A stretch of 34,366 nt of DNA from Candidatus Zhuqueibacterota bacterium (lineage in GTDB: Bacteria; Zhuqueibacterota; Zhuqueibacteria; Residuimicrobiales; Krinioviventaceae). A model generated the notes under the pieces. The model was not told the DNA's origin and ran no database searches. It saw nothing but the letters and a program-made list of their open reading frames with translations. Positions 7,580-21,436 of the stretch are shown here, piece by piece; position 1 is the first letter of the stretch, and every line of letters starts with the position of its first letter. The DNA lies in contig JAFGSB010000137.1 of NCBI GenBank assembly GCA_016934825.1, positions 1 through 34,366 of the forward strand. The letters run 5' to 3'. Position numbers and translations under genes: made by a program.

Positions 7580-8317
7580 ATGAACGAAAAAGCCTATATT
7601 CTGAATGAATTTTTAAAAACCGCGGGTATCACAAAGGATGATATAGAATTGTGGGAAAAATTAAAGCTGTTCAAACCCATCGGTTTTACGGAAGATAAGG
7701 TCCCGTTTTACGCCAATGAAACCCTGGAAGAAGTCGGGAATATTAAAAAACTAATCGAACTTGGATACCGGCCGGAAGAAATTCAAAAGATCATCAAAAA
7801 AATAGGGCTTCCGCAGAAAAACGGAAAACCCGCAAAAATCAAAAAACCGCAGTATTTGACCGTCGGCACACTCGCCGAAAAGGTGAATGTTAGTCCGAGA
7901 ACAATCAAACACTGGGAGGACAAGGGCATTCTGGAACCCGATATGCGCAGTGAAGGCGGTTTTCGCATGTATTCAGAGCAATATGTTTTTTTCGGCCAGC
8001 TTATTAAGGATTTACAGCTTTTTGGTTACTCCCTGGATGAAATAAAAACAATTTCCGATTACTTTCGGGATTTTATCACAATTCAAACCAACATTGAAAT
8101 TCATGGTAAAGAGGAAACGGAACAAAAATTGGAAACCATGAACGGTGAAATACAAAGTCTGTTAGAAAAAACTAATTTGCTCAAAGAGGGCATCCAGAGA
8201 TGGGAAGCCCTGCTCAGGAAAAAGAAAAAAGAATTGGCCGGTTTGAAAACATTAAACCAAAAACGAAATCACGACGATAAAGAAGGAAATATAAATGCAA
8301 AAGATGATATTCATTGA
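7580..8317 (+). CDS. MerR-like transcriptional regulator with two HTH domains
   Basis: 245 aa. Residues 91-160 are a canonical MerR winged-helix domain (LTVGTLAEKVNVSPRTIKHW, then GFRMY, then LFGYSLDEIKTI). Residues 6-78 look like a second, diverged MerR domain: helix-turn-helix-like TAGITKDDIELWEKLKLFKP followed by a wing and LIELGYRPEEIQKII, which matches 'LGfs.eEI..i'. A charged helical region (175-225) probably forms the dimer coiled coil. There is no C-terminal cobalamin or metal-binding domain and no Cys cluster, so the inducer is not evident. It heads an operon and its last 23 nt overlap the next gene. The start has only a weak AAAGG ribosome site. Confidence 0.85.
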   Translation: MNEKAYILNEFLKTAGITKDDIELWEKLKLFKPIGFTEDKVPFYANETLEEVGNIKKLIELGYRPEEIQKIIKKIGLPQKNGKPAKIKKPQYLTVGTLAEKVNVSPRTIKHWEDKGILEPDMRSEGGFRMYSEQYVFFGQLIKDLQLFGYSLDEIKTISDYFRDFITIQTNIEIHGKEETEQKLETMNGEIQSLLEKTNLLKEGIQRWEALLRKKKKELAGLKTLNQKRNHDDKEGNINAKDDIH

Positions 8318-9749
8318 GCCCAAGGCTCCCAATTTTCATATTTTCTCACAGTTTCAAATTCCCAGGTTGGGAAGTTTTATTCTGGGAGCGCTGATGAAGC
8401 AAAGAGGCTGGGATGTTGAAATTTTTGTTGAGGAAACCGAAACAATAAACTATGAAAAACTTACCTTGGCGGATATTGTGAGTATTTCCACAATTACACC
8501 AACCGCACCGCGGGCGTATGCAATTGCCGATAAATTACGAAATATGGGCATTACTGTCTTAATGGGCGGTCCGCATGTTACGTTTTTGCCGGATGAGGCC
8601 CTGCGGCACGCGGACTATGTAATCCGGGGAGAAGGTGAAGAAGCATTGTCCCGGTTTATCGACTGCTGGGAAACGGATAAAGATTTTTCCACGGTGCCGA
8701 ATCTGTCTTATAAATCGAACAATAATAACATTCATAATCCGCAGACCGCGTTTACAAAAGACCTTGATACGCTCCCTTTCCCGGATTTTTCGCTGTTACA
8801 AAGCAAAGTTAAAAAGATTGCCGGCAAACGAATTATCCCGGTACAGACGTCCAGGGGGTGTCCGTTTGACTGTTCTTTTTGTTCCGTGACGGGTATGTTC
8901 GGCAAGCGCTACCGTTACCGGTCGACGGAAAAGATTATGCAGGAATTACGAATGTACAACAGCAGTAAAAATTTCCTGTTCTTTTATGACGACAACTTTA
9001 CGGCAAATCCCAAAAGGACCAAAGAACTGATGAAAGCCATGATCCGGGAAAAGCTGCAATTCAAATGGTCAACCCAGGCGCGTGTGGATATTACTGAGGA
9101 TATCGAATTGGTTCGGCTTATGAAAAAAGCGGGGTGTCATACATTATTTATCGGTTTCGAATCCGTCAATCCGTTAAGCCTGAAAGAAATGAAAAAAAAG
9201 CAAACTGTACGGGATATGATGAACGCGATCAAAATTCTCCGTAAAAACCGGATACATATCCACGGTATGTTTGTGTACGGATTTGACAATGATAACTGGC
9301 AGACAGTGAAAGAAACGGTTAAATTTGCCAGGAAAGCAAAATTAACCTCCACACAATTTTTGATATTAACTCCTCTGCCGGGCTCGGAATTGTACAACAC
9401 CCTGAAAGCCGGGAACCGCTTAAAATTTGATGACTGGTCATTATATGACACTCATCACGTCGTTTTTGAACCGGAACATTTTTCATTATCCGAACTGCAA
9501 TATGCGCAAATTTACAGTCATAAAAAATTCTATTCGGTCTATGAAATTATCAAAAAATTCATAACCGTGAAATGGGTGGCATTGGGGCTTGCGCATTATG
9601 CCCGGCACTTAAACAGATCATGGCAAAAGAAAAATAATACATTTATCAAAATACTCGAACTTTTATCGCTCAGAAGCAAAGCAATATTGACAATTGATTA
9701 TAGAGAAAAAATACTGCTTGAAGAAGAACGAATGGTACTACACTCATAG
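8295..9749 (+). CDS. B12-binding-type radical SAM protein
   Basis: 484 aa. The N-terminal ~150 residues have the Rossmann-like layout of cobalamin-binding radical SAM enzymes (GGPHVTFLPDEAL, ADYVIRGEGE). The catalytic core carries the 4Fe-4S triad Cys189-x3-Cys193-x2-Cys196 in TSRGCPFDCSFC, followed by the usual FxDDNF segment and a C-terminal helical extension of about 100 residues. Family members (BchE, HpnP and many methylases or lipid and cofactor enzymes) do methyl transfer or other radical chemistry on unactivated carbons. Substrate unknown. An AAGGAA ribosome site lies 6 nt before the ATG, inside the regulator gene, so translation is coupled. A membrane-lipid role is possible because the next gene encodes a PAQR-like membrane protein, but that is inference. 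Confidence 0.88.
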   Translation: MQKMIFIEPKAPNFHIFSQFQIPRLGSFILGALMKQRGWDVEIFVEETETINYEKLTLADIVSISTITPTAPRAYAIADKLRNMGITVLMGGPHVTFLPDEALRHADYVIRGEGEEALSRFIDCWETDKDFSTVPNLSYKSNNNNIHNPQTAFTKDLDTLPFPDFSLLQSKVKKIAGKRIIPVQTSRGCPFDCSFCSVTGMFGKRYRYRSTEKIMQELRMYNSSKNFLFFYDDNFTANPKRTKELMKAMIREKLQFKWSTQARVDITEDIELVRLMKKAGCHTLFIGFESVNPLSLKEMKKKQTVRDMMNAIKILRKNRIHIHGMFVYGFDNDNWQTVKETVKFARKAKLTSTQFLILTPLPGSELYNTLKAGNRLKFDDWSLYDTHHVVFEPEHFSLSELQYAQIYSHKKFYSVYEIIKKFITVKWVALGLAHYARHLNRSWQKKNNTFIKILELLSLRSKAILTIDYREKILLEEERMVLHS

Positions 9750-9758
9750 GAGAAAAAT

Positions 9759-10409
9759 ATGGCAAAATCACTCAGGGAACCGGTTATCGGTTTGACCCAC
9801 TGTATCGGAACCGGTCTGGCAATAACCGCTTTGGTTTTACTGGTCGTAAGAGCCGGTCTGCATGGCACAGCCTGGCATGTTGTGAGTTATTCTATTTTTG
9901 GAACCGGGCTAGTTCTATTATATACTTTCAGCACATTATATCATTGGTTGAACCTGTCTGAAAAAGGGATCAAATTCTTCCGTAAAATGGATCATATTAT
10001 GATTTTTGTTTTAATTGCGGCAACCTATACGCCGATTTGTCTTGTCCCCCTGCGCGGCGGATGGGGCTGGAGTTTTTTCGGCGTTGTCTGGGGGCTCGCG
10101 ATTATGGGTATTCTTTTATCAATATTCTGGATCCATGCTCCGCGATGGTTTTCGACCTCCCTGTACATTCTGTTAGGCTGGATAGTCATTATCGGATTTA
10201 TCCCTCTGGCACAGGCAATGCCGTTGAACGGTTTGTTATGGCTTTTCCTCGGCGGTTTACTTTACACCATCGGAGGATTGATTTATAATTATAAAAAACC
10301 GGATCCGTTTCCGGGTATATTCGGATATCACGGACTGTTTCATATTTTTGTTGTCTTTGCAAGCATAACCCATTTTATTGTAATGTATTTTTATGTGATA
10401 AGTCTATAA
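9759..10409 (+). CDS. trhA: TrhA/hemolysin III family (PAQR-like) membrane protein
   Basis: 216 aa, about seven membrane helices. It keeps the PAQR/hemolysin III metal-site motifs: Ser58-x3-His62 (STLYH), Asp78-His79 (KMDHIMIF) and His191-x3-His195 (GYHGLFH), with a further His205. Relatives include bacterial TrhA/YqfA and eukaryotic adiponectin/progestin receptors; the family is linked to lipid amide hydrolysis or membrane homeostasis, and 'hemolysin' is a historical name. It begins 9 nt after the radical SAM stop with an AGGAGA ribosome site, so it is the third gene of the MerR-like operon. Confidence 0.9.
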   Translation: MAKSLREPVIGLTHCIGTGLAITALVLLVVRAGLHGTAWHVVSYSIFGTGLVLLYTFSTLYHWLNLSEKGIKFFRKMDHIMIFVLIAATYTPICLVPLRGGWGWSFFGVVWGLAIMGILLSIFWIHAPRWFSTSLYILLGWIVIIGFIPLAQAMPLNGLLWLFLGGLLYTIGGLIYNYKKPDPFPGIFGYHGLFHIFVVFASITHFIVMYFYVISL

Positions 10410-10589: not shown

Positions 10590-12977
10590 CTATTTTCCAT
10601 TTTTGTCATCAAGATTAAATTTGGCCAATAATTCTTTTTCACTCTTTGCCATGGAGCGGAATGAACCGGCAAGAGAAGTTACATATTGTAATTGCGAACT
10701 CATAGTTTGGGTTGAAGCGAAAACTTCCTCCACAAATGTTGCGTTCCGTTCGCTAACCTCGGCAACATTTTCTATGGCGACCCCTACATCGTCGGAGAGC
10801 TGCTGCATCTTTAAAATGGCCATAGCAATTTCATGAACACGGTCCTGGTCAACTTTAACTGATTGCTGAATATGTGCAAATGTACTTTTGACTTCATCTG
10901 TCAACACGGTAATATTTTTTACTTTGGTCAAGTCATCTTCCATTAAATTATTTACTTTTTTGATATCGGAAAGTATAAGTTCAACGACATTCGCAACATC
11001 CTTGGTAGCATTTGCCGTATTATTTGCTAAGGAACGAATTTCATTTGCCACAACCATAAATCCTTTACCATATTCGCCGGCACGGGCGGCTTCAATTGAT
11101 GCATTCAGGGACAAAAGATTGACCTGAAACGCAATATCGTTTATCATTTTCAGTATATCATTAATCTTTTCGGAATGTCCTTCAAGTTCTTCAACAATGT
11201 GCCAGGTTTCAGTTACGGATGACTCTATAGACCTCATGCTTTCAAGTGTCTTTTCGAGACTCAATGTGCCGGTGTTAAATACCTTGCCTGTTTCCTCAGC
11301 GGCAATGACACTTTCCTTTGCCTGGACAGAAATATTATTAATATTTCCCAGCAAAGATTTAACGACGCCACGGGTGTGATGTACCTGGTTGCTTTGAATT
11401 GTCGCTCCCTGAGCCATATCATTCATCGAAGTGTTAATTTGTTTCGTGGCATTATTTACTTCCTGGGCGCTGTCGGTCAAATTATGACTTGATTGCAGCA
11501 AATCTCCCGATTGATCAGAAATGATCTGTACGAGGCTTCTCAGGCTGGTAGGTTCACTGTTGGCGGTAATTACGGGAATCCCGGACTTGACCGCCCGGTT
11601 GATATACGGCACGATTTTACGGTCGACAGCAACAATCGCAAAAGCATCGTATTTTTTAGATATGAGTTCCTCAATTGCCGGACCGTATACCGCAGCGCTG
11701 AAATCTTTATTGACTCGTGATGCTTCCGGTATTATCCAATCCACCGTAACATTGTATTGAGATAATTTGGCCGCCGCTTCCTGACAACCTTTTTTTACGG
11801 GAATCCAAAAATCAGAATCCTCCCGCCCCAGAACCGCAATTTTTAAATGCTTTTCGGATCTTTTATTCACCGGTTTTGCAAGTCGTTCGATACTTTCCTG
11901 TGATTGTACCAGACCGATCCCTTCCCGCCAGTAATTTTCATAATTTTGTATTGTAACAACTTCTCTTTTCGTGAGTAAACGCGGTGAAGCCGGTTTCCAG
12001 CCGTCAACCAGATGATTGAATAAATGAATGACCGGATCGTGACCCTGGGCAAACGGGTCCTGTCCAAGCGTAGCAGTGATAACTCCCATTTTTAAATACT
12101 TCATTGTCTCATCCGTCATGTCGTGACCGATCACTTTAATAGTGCCGGTTTTCCCCGCATCCACTATTGCGCGGGCAACACCTGAAGGAGTTGCCCCCTC
12201 AGTAACATAAACACCTGCCAGAGCAAGATATTTTTTGATGGCCTCAGCTATATGAAGATTGGCCAATTGTCCATCTTCCTTATTTTCAGCAATGTCAACT
12301 ATCTCAATAGCCGGAAAATTATCTAAAATATAACTCTGAAATCCCTTTCTGCGTAAATCAAGTCCCGAAGCATGGAACGAACCGGTACTGATAAAAACTT
12401 TTCCGCGGCCTCCAATAGCTTGAGCCAGCACTTCTCCGCATTTCCTTCCTTCCAGGAACGAATCCGCACCAACATAACACAATCGTAAACAATGAATATC
12501 GGTTAACTTGTTAAACTCCTCCGCTGTGTTATTAAGACTTTGAATGATTGTATTAAATGCTTCAATAAACTCATTCAAATCACCGGCATCTGTTAGCTCT
12601 ATAGGTTTTGACTGAATTGCAAGATGCACTGATAAATTCCCCTGCGCAAGCTCTGTCATAGCAGCCGATAAGGCCTGACAATCCTTGGTTATCACCGAGT
12701 TATCAATGTGGATCGTTTCATATACTGACTCCTTCCCCGAAGATATTAACCGGTATAACAGGTATATGGCAAATAATGTTAAAGCAAAAAAACCTATTAG
12801 TAACATTAACTGCGGCAATACAGTATTTTGTTGGCGGGATACAGATATTGATTCATTCACAACTTTTAATAAAGGAACTAAACCTATAAGACCTGAAACA
12901 AAAGAAATGAATACTATCACAACCCCCCAAAACCGGAACCTTTTGTCCTTTGAGAGTGATACAAAATTCCCTGTCAT
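10590..12977 (-). CDS. Methyl-accepting chemotaxis protein with cytoplasmic, circularly permuted sugar-binding-protein domain
   Basis: 795 aa from the ATG at 12977 (AAAGGAAC ribosome site); the frame can be extended 10 codons to a TTG at 13007, and residue numbers here count from that TTG. Two membrane helices (~26-46, ~64-86) are joined by a short ~17-residue loop, then a HAMP-like segment (108-165). Residues 174-345 match the C-terminal half of a ribose/galactose-binding-type PBP ([30 protein letters not shown]). Residues 387-487 match the N-terminal half ([39 protein letters not shown]). This is the reverse of the normal order. The MCP signalling domain follows (490-790) with the conserved hairpin tip around 622-672 ([20 protein letters not shown]...). 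With two helices and no real periplasmic domain, sensing should be cytoplasmic, on the same side as CheA. Likely ligand a sugar or phosphosugar (inferred). Confidence 0.88.
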
Positions 12978-13731
12978 TTCAAGTTCCTTTTGTTTAATTA
13001 AAAACAAAATTTAGGTATGAATTATAATAAATATCAATATTTGTAAATAGATCCTGTTTTTTAGTTTAAACACCTTTATATCGCAATAGACTCAATACAT
13101 AGCATAAAATGTTAAATATTAACAAGTTGAACATACAACTTGAAAAAATAACGGCAATATTACCACGTTCTTATAAGAAAATTATTTCAAAATCATTCGG
13201 AAGAATTTGTTGATACATCATATTACGACATTGTATCAACATCTCAGTACCAGACACAAAATATATCTAATTCCACATGTTTTATATCATATAACAAAAC
13301 CCATGCCAGTTTAAAAAAATTCTTCTGTTTTGTCATTATTATTTTTAATTACTGCTCTCCCGTTAACGGTTACCTCTAACCGATACGAATTGCATATAAA
13401 TAAAATCAATCAATTAGTTGAATGAGGTATTTTCACTGTTAATTGGATTATAATAAAAATTCTCTAAAATTCAGGAGTATGAAAAAACCGGAACAGCGTG
13501 ACCGGGCCGTTCGGAAATGTATTAAAAATTCAAAATATTTGTTTTTGCTAATTAATGAGATCAAAAAATTGATACTTTTGTTGCGGAAATATCATTATTG
13601 CAGATATATTGGAGGAAAATAATCATGGCACTTAACCTGCCATGATTATGAAAAAAAACAGCTTAATGTGCCCTATTTTTTGATTCCGATTACATTACAA
13701 TGATGTCAGCTTACCGGACACCAGCATTACA
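12978..13731. other. Intergenic region between chemoreceptor and GH97 genes
   Basis: About 750 nt, AT-rich, with no convincing gene. It holds a possible minus-strand chemoreceptor promoter (TATAAT read from 13026 to 13021, TTTACA from 13047 to 13042, only a 15-nt spacer), a 10-bp palindrome CCGTTAACGG at 13360-13369, a 47-codon + strand frame at 13479-13622 (MKKPEQRDRAVRKC...) whose AGGAG lies too close to its ATG, and the GH97 terminator hairpin at 13619-13649. Confidence 0.5.
13619..13649 (-). terminator. Terminator of the GH97 gene
   Basis: A perfect 12-bp stem (13619-13630 with 13638-13649, 7-nt loop), about 85 nt past the GH97 stop on the minus strand. On that strand it is followed by TTTTCC, a short T run. 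The + strand flank is also A/T-rich. Confidence 0.6.
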
Positions 13732-15729
13732 TTAAATTTTTTCTATTTTCAAAACAAAACCACCTCGGGCGTGCATATCCACTTTTACCGATTCACCGGC
13801 AATAACGGATTCTTCATTAATATCAAAGCTTTTGTTTTTTTGTCCGTCACCGATAAATGTCATCGAATAAGCGCCCTCTCCAAGAAAAGACATAACGGCA
13901 TTTATGGTTAACGGTTCATTTTGTCCGTTAATACCGCCAACATACCAGTTTTCCCCATCTTTTCTGGCAATAACCGTATATTTTCCTGGATAGCCGTCCA
14001 CAAAATGAATATCATCCCAAGCAGCGGGGACCTGTTTAAGAAATTCTTTTACCGTCTCCGGCAATCCGAGATATGCTTCACACCGGTCCGCCATATGCAC
14101 CCAGCCCGATTCAAATACAACAGATAATGCGAGTTCATGAGCCCATGTTGTTAAATGCGGATAGGTTACATCCGAAAATGTAACCGGTGTATAATCCATT
14201 GGTCCAACAACATTGCGTGTGAAAGTTAAAATGGTATTATGCCAGGGGCTTTTTTCAGGATACCGGGCATCGAATTTATAACATTCCGCGCCCCGAACCG
14301 CTTCCATTGACATCAGGTGGGGATAGGTCCGCGACCAGCCCCTGGGAAGCGTACAGCCATGAAAATTTACCATCATTTCAAAATCAGCGGCATCCTGTAA
14401 AATATCATGGTAAAGAGAGATTATATTTTGTTTATCACTTTGAAAAAAGTCCACCTTAACACCTTTAACACCTATTTCCTGCAACTTTTTAAACTCGCTG
14501 CGGCGGACTTCCCGGTCGAACATCAGGTCCCGGGGTTGTTCGGTTACAATATTATGACTTCCGCCCGAATTGTACCACAGCAGGATCCCGACACCTTTTT
14601 TATTCGCATAGTTTACGAGGTCCCGTATCATCCCGTAACCTTCCAGGTTCCAGTTGGCGTCTACCAGCGAATATTCCCACCCCATTTCAGCCGCCAGATC
14701 GACAAAGGACATTAATGTTTCAAAGTTACGGGGACTATCGCTTTCGGACCACCAGCTCCATGATACATGACCGGGCCTTATCCAGTCCGTTTCCTGAACG
14801 CTTGAGGGTGGACTCAAATCCGTTACTATTGAGGTTTCAACAACCTGCGCCAGTGTTGAACCGGTAATAATCACTCTCCATGGTGTTTGCCACGGCAGGG
14901 ATGAAGAGGGTATGACGTCGCCGGTTCCATATCCCTCACCTTCATCCGGCATGCGGATCCGGTATATATTATTTGACACCTGTTGATGTAATCTCGCGCC
15001 GAAATAGGTCCCGTCCAAAGCCGACTCGGTGATGAGAACCCAGTTTTGACCATCATTGATTCGAAACAACACGGGCAGCGCCCATCCCGCGTTTATAGGC
15101 GAAGGCGTACCCACTTTGACATCCCGCATATAAAAATTCTCATAAGCCGGCGTCCACATTGTCGGATCATCATAGGGGAGCATAAAACCAACTGCATCGA
15201 CCGGCAGCCGGAACCCGGTCAACTCATCCGTAACGGTATACAATTCCGTGCTTTCTTCCGGGAACTGGTAGCGAAACGCAATACCGTCATTATAAGCGCG
15301 TAACACAATACTTAACTGCGCCGCATTCTCATTTTCGAAAAAAAGTGTTATTTCGTTCGCATAATTCCGGTTTTCTTTACGCTTGCCGTGCACCAGGGTA
15401 TATTTCTCATCGATGGTCTTGACTTCACTTTTGGACTTGAATATTAAACTGTCCACAAAAGACTGATCATTACGTTTTATGCCCAAAGGCGAATTCGGGA
15501 TTATCGTTTGTTTTCCGTTTTGCCCCCTGTATTCCACTTTATAATATAAACGCGTTTGCCCGGCGGGATATCCGGCCTCGTCCAAAGCACCCAATTGAAC
15601 AGATATACTGGCTTTACCGTCCGGTGATTTTACCGACCACCTGTTTCCACCAACAGTGCAGGAACTAAAAATAACAATGGACATGATCAAGGGGAAAATA
15701 TATATTAAACGATTTAAAAAATTTTTCAT
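13732..15729 (-). CDS. Glycoside hydrolase family 97 (alpha-glycosidase, retaining-type)
   Basis: 665 aa, the usual GH97 length. The N-terminal signal ends in a lipoprotein-like Cys24 (IFSSC), so it is probably a lipoprotein in the cell envelope. Layout is GH97: N-terminal beta-supersandwich (~30-300), TIM barrel (~315-590) with VSWSWWSES, and a C-terminal beta domain ending ARGGFVLKIEK. In the barrel, VKVDFFQSD places Asp427 where retaining GH97 enzymes (BtGH97b alpha-galactosidase type) have their nucleophile, and Glu476/Glu482 in MSMEAVRGAE are acid/base candidates. The inverting SusB alpha-glucosidase type uses a Glu-based site instead. I therefore favour alpha-galactosidase-like activity, consistent with the GH36 and galactokinase-like genes in this island. 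Exact substrate not proven. Confidence 0.92.
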   Translation of the reverse strand: MKNFLNRLIYIFPLIMSIVIFSSCTVGGNRWSVKSPDGKASISVQLGALDEAGYPAGQTRLYYKVEYRGQNGKQTIIPNSPLGIKRNDQSFVDSLIFKSKSEVKTIDEKYTLVHGKRKENRNYANEITLFFENENAAQLSIVLRAYNDGIAFRYQFPEESTELYTVTDELTGFRLPVDAVGFMLPYDDPTMWTPAYENFYMRDVKVGTPSPINAGWALPVLFRINDGQNWVLITESALDGTYFGARLHQQVSNNIYRIRMPDEGEGYGTGDVIPSSSLPWQTPWRVIITGSTLAQVVETSIVTDLSPPSSVQETDWIRPGHVSWSWWSESDSPRNFETLMSFVDLAAEMGWEYSLVDANWNLEGYGMIRDLVNYANKKGVGILLWYNSGGSHNIVTEQPRDLMFDREVRRSEFKKLQEIGVKGVKVDFFQSDKQNIISLYHDILQDAADFEMMVNFHGCTLPRGWSRTYPHLMSMEAVRGAECYKFDARYPEKSPWHNTILTFTRNVVGPMDYTPVTFSDVTYPHLTTWAHELALSVVFESGWVHMADRCEAYLGLPETVKEFLKQVPAAWDDIHFVDGYPGKYTVIARKDGENWYVGGINGQNEPLTINAVMSFLGEGAYSMTFIGDGQKNKSFDINEESVIAGESVKVDMHARGGFVLKIEKI

Positions 15730-16311: not shown

Positions 16312-17685
16312 TTAAGCTCCAACAATACCCAGCGGTTCTTTTGTCTTCCAGGCGCCCCTGGTAAAATCCGGGAAATCGATGGGCTTGCTTTTATTCGCCA
16401 CGGACCATTCGCTTAAAGGTCCGATCGCACTCCAGGTTACCGCGTCGTACACGTCGAAATCGGTTGGTTTGCCTTCACGCAGGCATTTAATTAACCGGTA
16501 ATCCTCGATAAAATCCATACCGCCGTGAGATGCGCCTTCAGCAGCTTCGTTCAACTGTTTCCACAACGGGTGTTCATATTCCGCACGGTATTTATCAAAT
16601 TCTTCCCATTGATGAGCAGGACTCAAGCCTTCAATATAGATCCTGTCCGGCCATTTTTCCGCGATACCCTTTGTACCCTGAATTACATTTTTCCTGCTGT
16701 AAGGACGGGGTGAAGAACAGTCGTGGTAAACCGTCATGGTGTGCCCCAGTTTTGTATGAATCAGGCTGACATTTATATCGCCGAGCGCGTATTTCTGCTT
16801 TGCCCATTTGCTGTCCGGCCCGAATTTTTCGGCCGCATAAAGATTCATACCGATGGATTTTGTACTCATGGAAACCATAAAATCGAACCGGTCTCCCCTG
16901 TTAATATTCATGCATTGCGCGGCCGGGCCGACACCGTGTGTGGGATACAAATTGCCGTCCCTTTTTATTGCATGCTGCGGACGCCATAATGCCTCGCCTT
17001 TTCTTTCAAAATCAAACTTGACTTCGCGCAAATCATGCAAATAACCTACTTCGGCGTGAATGATCTCTCCCAGCATACCATGGCGCACCAAATTCAATAC
17101 CATTAATTCAATCCTGTCGTAGGCGCAGTTTTCCATCATGACGCAATGTTTTTTCAGACGTTCCGATGTTTCTACAAGTTTCCAGCAATCATCGATAGTA
17201 TACGCCGCGGGCACTTCCGAAGCGGCATGTTTCCCGGATTCCATTGCGGCCAGCATAACCGGCACATGCCATTCCCATGGTGTTGCCGTATATACAAGGT
17301 CCAGATCATCCCGCTCACAAAGCCGTTTAAAATCGTTTTCACCGCGGGAATATCCGTCCGGTTTTCGTTTACCGGCTTTGACCGCCATCTGCTGCGCCCG
17401 TTCCACACGCTCCGGAACTATATCACAGACGGCTCGGAGCTCCGCGCCTTCAATTTTTAATAAATTCCGCACATGTGAGGAACCCATTCCTCCGACGCCG
17501 ACATAACCGATACGTACGGTTTCCATTGGTTTTACAGTAAACGGTATCGGAGCTTCTTTTAGCGCTTTAGCATTAGCCGTTTTTGCTACGCCGCTTAATG
17601 CAGCGCTTAATGGTACTGCCGCCCCGACTTTAAGAAAATCCCTTCGATTATATCCTTTTTTTGTCGTTTCATCATGATTTGCCAT
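16312..17685 (-). CDS. GH109-type NAD-dependent glycosidase (Gfo/Idh/MocA fold; alpha-N-acetylgalactosaminidase-like)
   Basis: 457 aa. A twin-arginine signal (RRDFLKVGAA) sends the folded, cofactor-loaded protein out of the cytoplasm. Residues ~56-180 form the Rossmann NAD domain (RIGYVGVGGMGSSHV, ATPWEWH, SGKHAASEVPAA). The rest follows the GH109 pattern closely: MMENCAYDR at ~184-191, LHDLR at ~216-220, GNLYPTHGVGP at 244-254, NRGDRFD, then SPRPYSR. GH109 enzymes use tightly bound NAD in an oxidation-elimination-reduction route to cleave alpha-GalNAc. It lies 35 nt after the GHMP kinase gene, as second gene of that operon, which fits release of a galactose-type sugar followed by phosphorylation. 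A plain Gfo/Idh dehydrogenase is the alternative; other sugar linkages are possible. Confidence 0.85.
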   Translation of the reverse strand: MANHDETTKKGYNRRDFLKVGAAVPLSAALSGVAKTANAKALKEAPIPFTVKPMETVRIGYVGVGGMGSSHVRNLLKIEGAELRAVCDIVPERVERAQQMAVKAGKRKPDGYSRGENDFKRLCERDDLDLVYTATPWEWHVPVMLAAMESGKHAASEVPAAYTIDDCWKLVETSERLKKHCVMMENCAYDRIELMVLNLVRHGMLGEIIHAEVGYLHDLREVKFDFERKGEALWRPQHAIKRDGNLYPTHGVGPAAQCMNINRGDRFDFMVSMSTKSIGMNLYAAEKFGPDSKWAKQKYALGDINVSLIHTKLGHTMTVYHDCSSPRPYSRKNVIQGTKGIAEKWPDRIYIEGLSPAHQWEEFDKYRAEYEHPLWKQLNEAAEGASHGGMDFIEDYRLIKCLREGKPTDFDVYDAVTWSAIGPLSEWSVANKSKPIDFPDFTRGAWKTKEPLGIVGA

Positions 17686-17720
17686 TTTACTTCTCCTGTG
17701 TCTAAATAAGAGTTAATCCT

Positions 17721-18812
17721 TTAATGCTGTGAATTGTGAACGGTTACACCCATACCAACATCGATAATATAAGGTTTACCTCCTGCTTTTAAAATCGCTT
17801 CGGCAACCTGTTCCGTTGAATCCGGGGCATAGGCAAACATACAACCGCCGCCGCCCGAACCGTTTATTTTTGCTCCGAGCGCCCCGGCTTTCAGGGCCAT
17901 ATCGATCATGTTATCTATTTTTTTCGTAGATATTTTCAGCCGGTCCCGGAGTTCGGCCTGATGCAGGTTTAAAAGCTGTCCGATCCTGTTATGATCAAAA
18001 GTCTTTTTTTGCAGCTCTTTTTTTGCCTGTTGAGTAAACTCGCGGTTCTTAATATTGGCAAAAAGTAAATTATATTGCTCCTGATCCAGCAGGTTCTTCA
18101 TATTGTCCAGTTGATCGGGACCAATTGTCTGCATAGTTACATTGTGATCTTTTTGTTTCAATATCGATAACGCGTTTAAAGTACCGTCTTTCACCCTGTG
18201 TAATATTCCCTTGGTATCTTTGGGCTGTAAAGAATCTCCCAGCACAAATTTTCCCAATTTAACATTTACCGGTTCATGACCATTTGTCTTACTAAAATCA
18301 ATATACAAAATTGAACCGAAACTACAGGCAAAATGGTCCATCATCCCGCCGGGTTCTTTGAATTCGAGCACTTCAGCCTCATGCGCCAGCCGGGCAATAT
18401 TATACGGATCATTATAAGCGCTGTTTGAAGCCGTCGTCAGAAGAAATTTGATCCACGCAACGATCAAGGCGGATGAGCTTGATGTCCCCGAATTGATAGG
18501 TATGTTGCCGGTAATCGTACAATCATAACCGTTGCCAAGTTTCACACCATGCCGTAACAATACGTTTAGTGAGCTTTTAAAATAATCTCTTTCCTTATCA
18601 TAGGATATTGGTTCCGCCACATCGATAATTTCTTTATCGTCGATATCCGGCATATTCAAAATATATTTCCGGTCTTTTCTTTTTACGCCATGAATTGAAA
18701 TTCGCAGATTGATAGCCGCCGTGATAACGGGCAGGCCCAGATAATCCTGATGTTCGCCAAACAGGCATATTCGCCCGGGCGCGGAAATTGTTAATTCGTT
18801 CAAATCAATCAT
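17721..18812 (-). CDS. GHMP family kinase, galactokinase-like
   Basis: 363 aa from the ATG at 18812 (AGGAAA just before it); an upstream ATG at 18836 adds 8 residues but has no ribosome site. Residue numbers count from 18836. The galactokinase-type N-terminal signature is clear (APGRICLFGEHQDYLGLPV, 19-37), followed by the GHMP ATP loop (NIPINSGTSSSSA, 111-123), a catalytic-Asp candidate Asp167 in GGMMD, and the C-terminal KINGSGGGGCMF motif. It should phosphorylate a sugar at C1 with ATP in the cytoplasm. Galactose or GalNAc is likely, given the alpha-galactosidase-type and GH109-type enzymes nearby, but a mevalonate- or heptose-kinase-type substrate cannot be excluded from sequence alone. 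First gene of an operon with the GH109-type gene. Confidence 0.85.
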   Translation of the reverse strand: MIDLNELTISAPGRICLFGEHQDYLGLPVITAAINLRISIHGVKRKDRKYILNMPDIDDKEIIDVAEPISYDKERDYFKSSLNVLLRHGVKLGNGYDCTITGNIPINSGTSSSSALIVAWIKFLLTTASNSAYNDPYNIARLAHEAEVLEFKEPGGMMDHFACSFGSILYIDFSKTNGHEPVNVKLGKFVLGDSLQPKDTKGILHRVKDGTLNALSILKQKDHNVTMQTIGPDQLDNMKNLLDQEQYNLLFANIKNREFTQQAKKELQKKTFDHNRIGQLLNLHQAELRDRLKISTKKIDNMIDMALKAGALGAKINGSGGGGCMFAYAPDSTEQVAEAILKAGGKPYIIDVGMGVTVHNSQH

Positions 18813-19491
18813 TTTCCTTTCTTTTTTAAGATCCATCAGCTTGTGTTTTTTACTCTTTTACCCGGAGTTCATCACTAGTCAAAATTCCCGTATTGGTATT
18901 GCTACCCATACAAGTTGAAAGATAAAACCGGCAAGCCGGACACGCCATATTATCCAGTTAAAATAAATTGTTACTCCATGCCAATATACAAAAAATCAAC
19001 CAAAAGACAAACATAAGAGTTCGCCGGAAAAAAAATATGACGCACATCACCGAAACCAAACCCGCGTGCGACAGCCCCGGACTGCCGGGGTAAATGCCGC
19101 TGTAGCAGTCCCTGGTGAACTCATGCCCGCTGAATGCCAGGGATCCGAATGGCCATGACAATTTTCCAGTAGTAATTACAGGCTTGTACGGTCAATTGTA
19201 AATGGATTTATGCAATTTTCCCACCGGCCCCGGCCGAAGCCGGCGAAAAAATATGGAACAGAACCAAAACGGGAACAGCATAAAGACAAGATCAACTGCT
19301 TATTCGATGAACTCCAGGTTCTGGTTCATTATGTTTTGTTATGATTCTTTCGTCTATATATTCCTTATTCACGTTCAATTTTTTTAAGATCACAGAATAT
19401 AGCTGTTCACAAACAGGCAGCCGACAGGGCGCCCAAAGTTTTGAAAAACTGCCGCCCGGTCTTGTTTTGTATTTTATTAACCATTTTTCAT
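18813..19491. other. Intergenic region between GHMP kinase and AAC(3)-like genes
   Basis: About 680 nt with no gene I can support. Two short GC-rich hairpins (19075-19090, 6-bp stem; 19230-19243, 5-bp stem) lack T runs. A minus-strand 67-codon frame (18958-19161) reads CYSGIYPGSPGLSHAGL and then becomes hydrophobic; it has only a TTG start and no ribosome site, so it may be a gene remnant. The GHMP kinase promoter should lie near 18840-18960. Confidence 0.4.
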
Positions 19492-20253
19492 TCAGCGCCT
19501 GTCGACAAAATACAAAGGATTTGCTCTTAAAGCAGCCAATGACTTTTCCCATAATAAATCCGCCTCTATCAACATGGACGGCGCTTTTAAAATAGTGCCT
19601 TTTTTAATTCCGCTAATATCTAAAATATTTTCGACACGGTCATAGCGCTGTTCCCAACCAATAAAATTATGCGGGCGATACTCTTTCTCGGCTGTATTTC
19701 CTTTACCGTCAATCAATCGGTAAATCATTCCGGGATTAAATAAATAAGGGGGCAGGACCAGTTCTTCAACGCCGTGCATGGAGGTATTCGGCTTCAAACC
19801 GCAACCGAGCATCAGTATCTGTCCATACCGGTCCCTGAGTTGGAAAAACGGGGAGTTGGGTCCGCACGGAGTGGTGTCATGTATGTGTTTTTCAAGGATT
19901 TCCTGCGCAAAACGTCCCACACCGCAAACGGAATGCGTGGGATGCATGCTTCGTATGGTACCGTTACGTTTACGAAAGAATTCCGTAACGGCGCCGACGC
20001 ATGACGGCGTTTCAGCTATATCAAATACAGAATTGTCCGGGGTTACGGTTTCATAACTCAACGCCGGCATGAACAGGGTGCCATCCGGACCGAGCGCTTC
20101 CAGCAGGCCCCGTATTATTGTCTCGGGTCCGCCGGGCACATGTCCCATGGATTTCATGGACGAATGCACCAAAAGTATTCCGCCGGAGCGGACGCCGATC
20201 CGTACCAGGTCATCGGCTATTTTTCTTACTGTTTCTGGTTGTTGACCAAACAT
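19492..20253 (-). CDS. AAC(3)-family N-acetyltransferase-like protein
   Basis: 253 aa, the normal length for the aminoglycoside 3-N-acetyltransferase / YokD family. Family motifs present: LLVHSSMKSMG (27-37), GTLFMPALSYE, RSMHPTHSVCGVG (101-113, with the catalytic-type His104/His107), and the C-terminal GCGLKPNTSMHGVEE (150-164). Members use acetyl-CoA to acetylate amino groups on sugars. It starts 7 nt after the epimerase stop and is the third gene of the DUF4434/AGE operon, so a role on a catabolic amino sugar or glycan fragment is more likely than antibiotic resistance. Start codon has only a weak ribosome site. Confidence 0.85.
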   Translation of the reverse strand: MFGQQPETVRKIADDLVRIGVRSGGILLVHSSMKSMGHVPGGPETIIRGLLEALGPDGTLFMPALSYETVTPDNSVFDIAETPSCVGAVTEFFRKRNGTIRSMHPTHSVCGVGRFAQEILEKHIHDTTPCGPNSPFFQLRDRYGQILMLGCGLKPNTSMHGVEELVLPPYLFNPGMIYRLIDGKGNTAEKEYRPHNFIGWEQRYDRVENILDISGIKKGTILKAPSMLIEADLLWEKSLAALRANPLYFVDRR

Positions 20254-20260
20254 ATTACAC

Positions 20261-21436
20261 TCAACTCTTGTTTAACTTTTCGAAACATGTCCAGCATAAA
20301 TACAGCGCACGAGGCAGATGAAAACATCCCTTCCACTTTCCGCCTTTTAATGGCAACAGCACTTCTCCCTGCCTGTTCAAATATCCGTACCATTCGCCAT
20401 AAACCGGGTCAGGATAACGATACCAGCAGTAATCATGTACCAGTTTATACTTTTCCCACACATCCGCTCGCCCGGTAAGCCGGTATCCCTTTGCCAAAGC
20501 GACAAGCGTTTCCAACTGCACCCACCACAATTTTTGATCCCATTCAAGCTGCTGCGGCGGATGCCCCTGCGCATCGAGAAAATAATAGATGCCGCCGTGT
20601 TTTTTATCCCAGCCGAAATCAAATATATCCAGTACAATCTGTACTGCTTTTTCCCAAAGCTGCTTTTGTTCACGCCTTTCGGCGATATCCATGATGAACC
20701 ACATCGCCTCGAAGCCATGTCCCGGGTTTATGAGCCTGCCGTCAAAACAGTCCGATAAAGAACCATCGGGACAAACATTTTCAAATATCAACTTTTTCCC
20801 GGGTTGATAGAATTTTTCCATGACCTGATGGACACAATTGTCTATGGTTTGTTCAACCACCCCTTTATCAAGCAAAAATTCGAGCTCCAGCGTCACATTA
20901 CACAGGATCATCGGTAATGTAATATTAACAAGCGGCCTTGTACCGGGATAAATTTTATTATATTCACCTTTCGGATTTGTTTGTCTTTTTAATATATTAT
21001 TAAACGTGTTTACAGCCAGGTCTGCCACCTGACTGTCCCCGGTTGCTTTGGAATACTGCCCCAGCGCCATAGCCGCGAAACAATCGGAAAAGATATTATA
21101 GGGTTGGATCAGGGGCCTGCCCTGCTGATCCAACGCAAAATACCAGTTACCCTGCCCGTCCATACCGTATTTTGTCAGGAAATCCACGCCGCTGCGGGCG
21201 ACATTCAACCACTTTTCTTTTTGCCGAACATGGTTATATAACATGGAAAAGGTCCAGATCTGACGGGCCTGCAACCATATGAATTTATCCGTATCGTAAA
21301 CATTTCCCGCCCGGTCAAGGCAGGTGAAATATCCACCGTACTCTTTATCGATTGAATACTTTATCCAGAACGGCATAACGTCCTTCAGCAGGGCATTCTT
21401 ATATAACAACGCCAGTTCTTTAAATCGTATTTTCAT
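20261..21436 (-). CDS. AGE-family sugar epimerase (N-acylglucosamine 2-epimerase-like)
   Basis: 391 aa with the (alpha/alpha)6-barrel pattern of the AGE/RnBP family. The catalytic residues expected for this family are visible: Arg58 (LQARQIW), His240 in [10 protein letters not shown] and His373 in [10 protein letters not shown]. Members epimerise at C2 or isomerise free sugars (GlcNAc/ManNAc, mannose/glucose/fructose, cellobiose); which one applies cannot be read here. Cytoplasmic, no signal peptide. Its ATG overlaps the TGA of the DUF4434 gene by ATGA, so the two are translationally coupled. Confidence 0.9.

Follow-up and report, generated by a model that had tools for sequence, protein, structure and literature searches.

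The receptor gene and its neighborhood

The window analyzed here is a whole stretch of 34,366 nucleotides from a Candidatus Zhuqueibacterota bacterium (contig JAFGSB010000137.1), and it carries on its minus strand an intact gene for a membrane-anchored receptor. From N- to C-terminus, the product has two membrane helices, a HAMP-like region, the C-terminal half of a periplasmic binding protein (PBP) of the ribose/glucose type, a linker, the N-terminal half of that PBP and a methyl-accepting (MCP) signaling domain. An AAAGGAA sequence lies a few bases upstream of the ATG at 12977, and an alternative in-frame TTG at 13007 would give a product of 805 aa; residue numbers throughout refer to this longer version. 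The features are as follows.

10590..12977, minus strand: whole receptor coding sequence, ATG at 12977, stop at 10590, 795 aa
12864..12920, minus strand: membrane helix 1, residues 30-48, hydropathy 2.7
12750..12806, minus strand: membrane helix 2, residues 68-86, hydropathy 2.41
12510..12698, minus strand: HAMP-like region, about residues 104-166, sub-threshold in Pfam
11928..12488, minus strand: PBP C-terminal half, residues 174-360 (Pfam, 2h3h 97-253, PBP HMM, C-lobe fold match)
11847..11927, minus strand: linker from the old C-terminus to the old N-terminus, residues 361-387
11550..11846, minus strand: PBP N-terminal half, residues 388-486 (2qvc 3-96, PBP HMM)
10593..11549, minus strand: MCP signaling domain, residues 487-805 (Pfam MCPsignal, 2ch7)
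10938..11192, minus strand: MCP hairpin tip region, residues 606-690, 86% identical to the congener
13732..15729, minus strand: GH97 glycoside hydrolase (Pfam)
16312..21436, minus strand: GH109-type oxidoreductase, galactokinase-like GHMP kinase, Antibiotic_NAT protein and GlcNAc 2-epimerase-like protein (Pfam)

A congener carries a full-length copy (L001) that is 59% identical overall, and it provides a view of which neighbors are maintained. The initial annotation had set the receptor beside a carbohydrate island, and sugar genes do adjoin it both here and in relatives, but GH97 is not conserved among them: that gene adjoins the receptor in the window's species and is absent beside the congener's copy. 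The set at 16312..21436 is retained in synteny with the congener's receptor. Many receptors of the family have carbohydrate genes next to them, and several stand beside genes for GH31 and GH13, for GH2, for GH3 or for glucan phosphorylase. The Antibiotic_NAT gene (aminoglycoside 3-N-acetyltransferase family; 19492-20253) lies within the sugar cluster and has a congener copy 63% identical to it; it is perhaps a sugar N-acetyltransferase. On the other side, window positions 7580-10409 hold a regulator-like gene followed by genes for a B12-binding radical SAM protein and for a small protein of the membrane that by eye resembles hemolysin III and is integral to it, and their order is likewise kept beside the congener receptor.

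The PBP domain is circularly permuted

Both lobes of a type I PBP are present in the receptor and match the Pfam profile Peripla_BP_4 (PF13407) in two stretches, with 145.8 bits against a cut-off of 35.1 (E 2.3e-42); the better stretch pairs residues 173-325 with profile positions 93-246. Canonical proteins of this family have the N half followed by the C half, whereas the C half comes first in all 18 members of the receptor family described below. The same arrangement emerged from phmmer comparisons, in which residues 175-331 aligned to positions 97-253 or 98-254 of the Thermotoga maritima glucose-binding protein (97-253 in 2h3h) and the later segment aligned to about residues 2-96 of the same chains (2h3h, 2qvc), such that the two matched ranges abut and do not overlap. 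The first segment comprises the C lobe, the second and third hinge crossings and the original C-terminus, and the second stops at the severed first hinge crossing, at the motif NSEP.

An HMM trained on 25 canonical PBPs of related genomes gave a consistent picture: across all 18 family members, columns ~131-313 are taken up by the first segment and ~33-126 by the second, the ranges in the window's receptor being 132-313 and 34-133. When the window's receptor was rotated in silico, the two HMM matches (123.8 and 44.6 bits) fused into a single match of 183.9 bits, and swapping the segments produced one continuous match in every member tested. A profile of six rotated sequences matched residues 2-256 of 2qvc with an E value of 6e-46. 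Because the halves are complementary and fuse upon rotation, we regard them as one circularly permuted domain, as had been proposed from the initial reading of the locus. The two cover a single profile with no overlap and share their closest structure, and the possibility that they are remnants of two different PBPs was rejected on these grounds. As judged by these profile comparisons, the C-half-before-N-half order is far beyond chance and is kept across phyla.

The alignments place the cut in the loop of the first crossing from the N lobe to the C lobe, at about 2h3h residue 96/97. For comparison, the hinge of the T. maritima ribose-binding protein (RBP) comprises residues 102-105, 244-249 and 271-275 (PMC2630998). 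The location of the cut at the first hinge crossing had been anticipated, as had the attachment of the two new ends, both at the hinge, to HAMP on one side and the MCP helix on the other; the residue ranges of the halves agree with both. The linker that joins the old termini is 26-27 residues long in all 18 members, and this constancy points to a single origin of the permutation and to a structural constraint. In a comparison of a predicted model with solved structures, the C lobe gave a fold match with Z of 11-12. AlphaFold, given two sequences, produced models of low confidence (pLDDT 48.8 and 57.6) in which a closed two-lobed clamp was not seen. Among the matches listed by Foldseek and VIA, all were to the C half, and as one half can fill such a list, the result is uninformative about the N half.

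Topology and distribution of the family

Hydropathy places the membrane helices at residues 30-48 and 68-86 with a 19-residue loop, close to the ~17 residues first estimated, and the scan found no membrane-helix candidate downstream of residue 86. All family members have two helices with a loop of 0-25 residues, and in none does hydropathy indicate a further helix before the MCP domain. With no membrane helix between them, clamp and MCP domain should lie on one side of the membrane, which places the clamp almost surely in the cytoplasm, where the initial annotation had put it. The Pfam HAMP score of the window's receptor is 14.5 bits against a cut-off of 25 (E 0.045), and a relative (L041) exceeds that cut-off with 33 bits. 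Cysteine content was considered as a hint to the location of the clamp and proved uninformative (1.26% vs 1.02%).

A search for homologues with the same domain order yielded 17 relatives from at least three phyla, making 18 members in all, and every relative shares the architecture and the cut point. Scanning the genome contigs with the single receptor sequence had returned the congener as the sole full-length relative. Among 82 genomes of the window's own phylum, full-length relatives occur in nine others and are 39-63% identical over the query. Two more, 45-46% identical, come from genomes of the phylum to which a Bacteroidales MAG belongs, and one that is 33% identical lies on a plasmid of Leptolinea sp. 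HRD-7 (Chloroflexota). The plasmid copy (L062:8764-11283) is annotated as a hypothetical protein, and its MCP domain has a symmetric 28-residue insertion in each arm relative to the other members. In genome G036, which has four copies in all, two permuted receptors stand in tandem (L071:6820-11597), and the R normally present in the EAxRAGE tip motif is missing from both. The permuted receptor was found in 0 of 398 genomes of the phylum of Faecalicatena (a Firmicutes sample searched without a positive control), and viral contigs and phage records contained no full-length relative. A FastTree phylogeny of the sensor region placed the window's genus among members from other families of its phylum, and the receptor is absent from 20 of the 22 genomes of the window's own order; acquisition by transfer in this genus is possible.

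A model for signaling through a looped-out clamp

We propose that the gene encodes an MCP-type receptor that is anchored in the membrane and senses through a cytoplasmic, circularly permuted sugar-binding domain of type I, with movement of the lobes shifting the MCP helix, and we assign this reading a probability of roughly two-thirds. According to this model, the natural ends of the PBP would be joined by the conserved 26-27-residue linker and the chain reopened at the loop of the first hinge crossing. The exit helix of HAMP would continue into the C lobe. A few residues from that entry point, the final N-lobe strand would lead into the MCP helix, so that the clamp would in effect be looped out of the HAMP-MCP helix. 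Since HAMP and the MCP helix are joined to different lobes a few residues apart, lobe closure should shift one helix against the other; opening and closing of the clamp on a cytosolic sugar would thus be expected to move the MCP helix relative to HAMP, with output to CheA/CheW in the relatives. Both clamp junctions are well conserved, being 89% and 85% identical to the congener versus 59% for the protein overall. Severing the chain need not abolish binding, because the separated lobes of T. maritima RBP reassemble and bind ribose with an affinity comparable to that of the full protein (PMC10601554).

Output domain and chemosensory partners

The output domain is a recognizable MCPsignal domain (PF00015, E 4e-35), and residues 502-797 match 2ch7 residues 13-308 over equal lengths (296 vs 296 residues; phmmer). 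Tip positions N635, A636, E639, A640 and R658 are nearly invariant in the family alignment. A single strict consensus methylation site (757-766) is present in the window's receptor, and most relatives have none. CheW and CheR were found in all nine relatives' genomes searched. In genome G030, which is one of these nine, gene lengths and openings suggest a cluster of response regulator, CheW, CheR, CheW, MCP, CheA and CheB, with the MCP confirmed by Pfam and CheW and CheR by domain searches. FliG was found in the congener only, and because eight of the nine relatives' genomes have no FliG match, the target of most of their chemosensory systems is probably not a flagellum.

The window's organism itself is another matter. 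A role in chemotaxis had been suggested for it, but the receptor is the sole MCP of a genome that is 95.4% complete and in which no CheW domain (which is also part of CheA), no CheR and no FliG was found, and for this organism the suggestion is not supported. The congener has seven CheW and three CheR matches plus FliG, distributed over several loci. The che genes could be missing from the assembly, although several separate loci would have to be missing together; given the separate loci in the congener and the completeness of the genome, we consider an assembly gap unlikely. It is therefore a real possibility, a little short of an even chance, that a chemosensory system since lost has left the gene behind as a relic, still intact because the loss was recent, a scenario compatible with the model we favor for the family as a whole. 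The intact 795-codon frame and the conservation of the tip and junctions speak against a relic. In the window's genome the receptor would be either a recent orphan or a protein with another partner. We think it improbable that it still works in the absence of CheA, CheW and CheR, its cytosolic sugar clamp signaling via a Che-independent partner.

The binding pocket and its probable ligand

To examine the pocket, the contact list of ecRBP (PMC2630998) was mapped onto the 18-member alignment. The equivalent of R141 is R in 18/18 members, and D215 and Q235 are each kept in 17/18, with one member having D at the Q235 position. F15 is likewise F in 17/18, F16 is replaced by W in 17/18, and the position of D89 is N in 16/18 and H in one member. 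The residue preceding the D215 equivalent is H in every member. The N190 position is variable across the family (E, D, T, C, S, Q, Y, F). By this mapping the pocket is of the sugar type, with a His-Asp family signature at 295-296 and a variable specificity position at N190. Among solved structures, the T. maritima glucose/xylose-binding protein comes closest to the rotated domain, and the nearest relatives of the sensor are named as binders of glucose, xylose, galactose or arabinose. We infer that the most economical prediction for the ligand is a cytosolic sugar.

A folded, cytoplasmic, permuted domain might instead sense a sugar phosphate, an AI-2-like furanose, a nucleoside or a protein partner. 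Such a ligand would fit with the variability at N190, the replacement of D89 by N, and the fact that cytosolic sugars are often phosphorylated. A HAD phosphatase-like gene also occurs at five receptor loci, its nearest named family being glucose-1-phosphatase at a score well below the cut-off, and the structures tied as matches to the C half include chains of LsrB and LuxP. However, the LsrB matches are tied with those of sugar PBPs and are not better, the nearest relatives bind glucose, xylose and arabinose, and the family retains equivalents of R141, D215 and Q235, the residues with which RBP binds neutral sugar hydroxyls. We therefore view a ligand other than a free sugar as rather unlikely.

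Less likely still is a clamp that has ceased to bind any ligand and serves HAMP and the MCP domain only as a spacer or scaffold. Some pocket positions do vary, including the D at the Q235 position and the H at D89 in one member each, but most are nearly invariant over three phyla and as conserved as the MCP tip, which is unexpected of a spacer. Finally, although no sugar PBP of an ABC transporter is known to be other than extracytoplasmic, a periplasmic clamp would require the topology reading to be wrong in a family whose members all have two helices, loops of 0-25 residues and no further helix, and would leave the MCP domain outside the cell with no partners; we consider it very improbable.

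Relationship to known systems

By its output domain the receptor is an MCP, with the same hairpin and conserved tip as other MCPs and the T. maritima 2ch7-type signaling domain, and by the ancestry of its sensor it is a type I PBP that lacks the defining order of that class. MCPs usually have a periplasmic sensor between their membrane helices, whereas the PBP domain here follows HAMP and is predicted to be cytoplasmic. The T. maritima glucose/xylose-binding protein (2h3h, 2qvc, 3c6q) is the nearest solved relative of both halves, with 33-35% identity in the C half, but it is periplasmic, canonical in order and free-standing, unlike the permuted and fused sensor of the receptor. The BT1754-type hybrid two-component sensor (2x7x) resembles the receptor in having a PBP-type sugar sensor fused to a signaling protein, and differs from it in being periplasmic, canonical in order and coupled to a histidine-kinase output.

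The closest precedent for the permutation is Treponema pallidum Tp0684/TpMglB-2, proposed as a "Type Ic / Cluster Bc" permuted PBP, which binds glucose with a change of shape and is a free lipoprotein of an ABC transporter (PMC4990184). Both proteins are natural circular permutations of a type I sugar PBP. However, in Tp0684 the cut separates strand 3 from strand 4 in the N lobe and the protein is unfused, whereas the receptor is cut after the last strand of the N half, at the first hinge crossing, and its permuted domain lies within an MCP. Given the different cut and the location in an MCP, the permutation in the receptor is probably an event independent of that in Tp0684. A search of the open-access literature, which leaves most subscription journals uncovered, turned up no description of a chemoreceptor with a permuted PBP, and Tp0684 was the only natural permuted sugar PBP found. 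The design, which recurs in at least three phyla, thus seems to be undescribed so far, and it adds to Tp0684 a second natural permuted sugar PBP with a different cut.

PBP biosensors have been engineered by domain insertion or permutation (e.g. PMC6335823, PMC3265398), and in them closure of the lobes is meant to move a fused effector much as we propose for the receptor, the one being man-made and the other a natural family. If our model is correct, the family represents a natural answer to the problem that biosensor engineers face of converting closure of a clamp on a sugar into motion of a fused signaling helix, the solution being to cut a hinge strand and to join one end to HAMP and the other to MCP. 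The model would further mean that chemosensory arrays can read intracellular sugar with a fold otherwise used outside the cell or in repressors. The family makes the role of the hinge in PBP signaling directly testable.

Two other MCPs came to light as well: L076:1112-4594 and L077:1423-5079, both on the minus strand, encode proteins of ~1,160-1,220 aa with a Reg_prop propeller and Y_Y_Y domains, so that a sensor layout known from the hybrid two-component systems of Bacteroides is here coupled to an MCP output.
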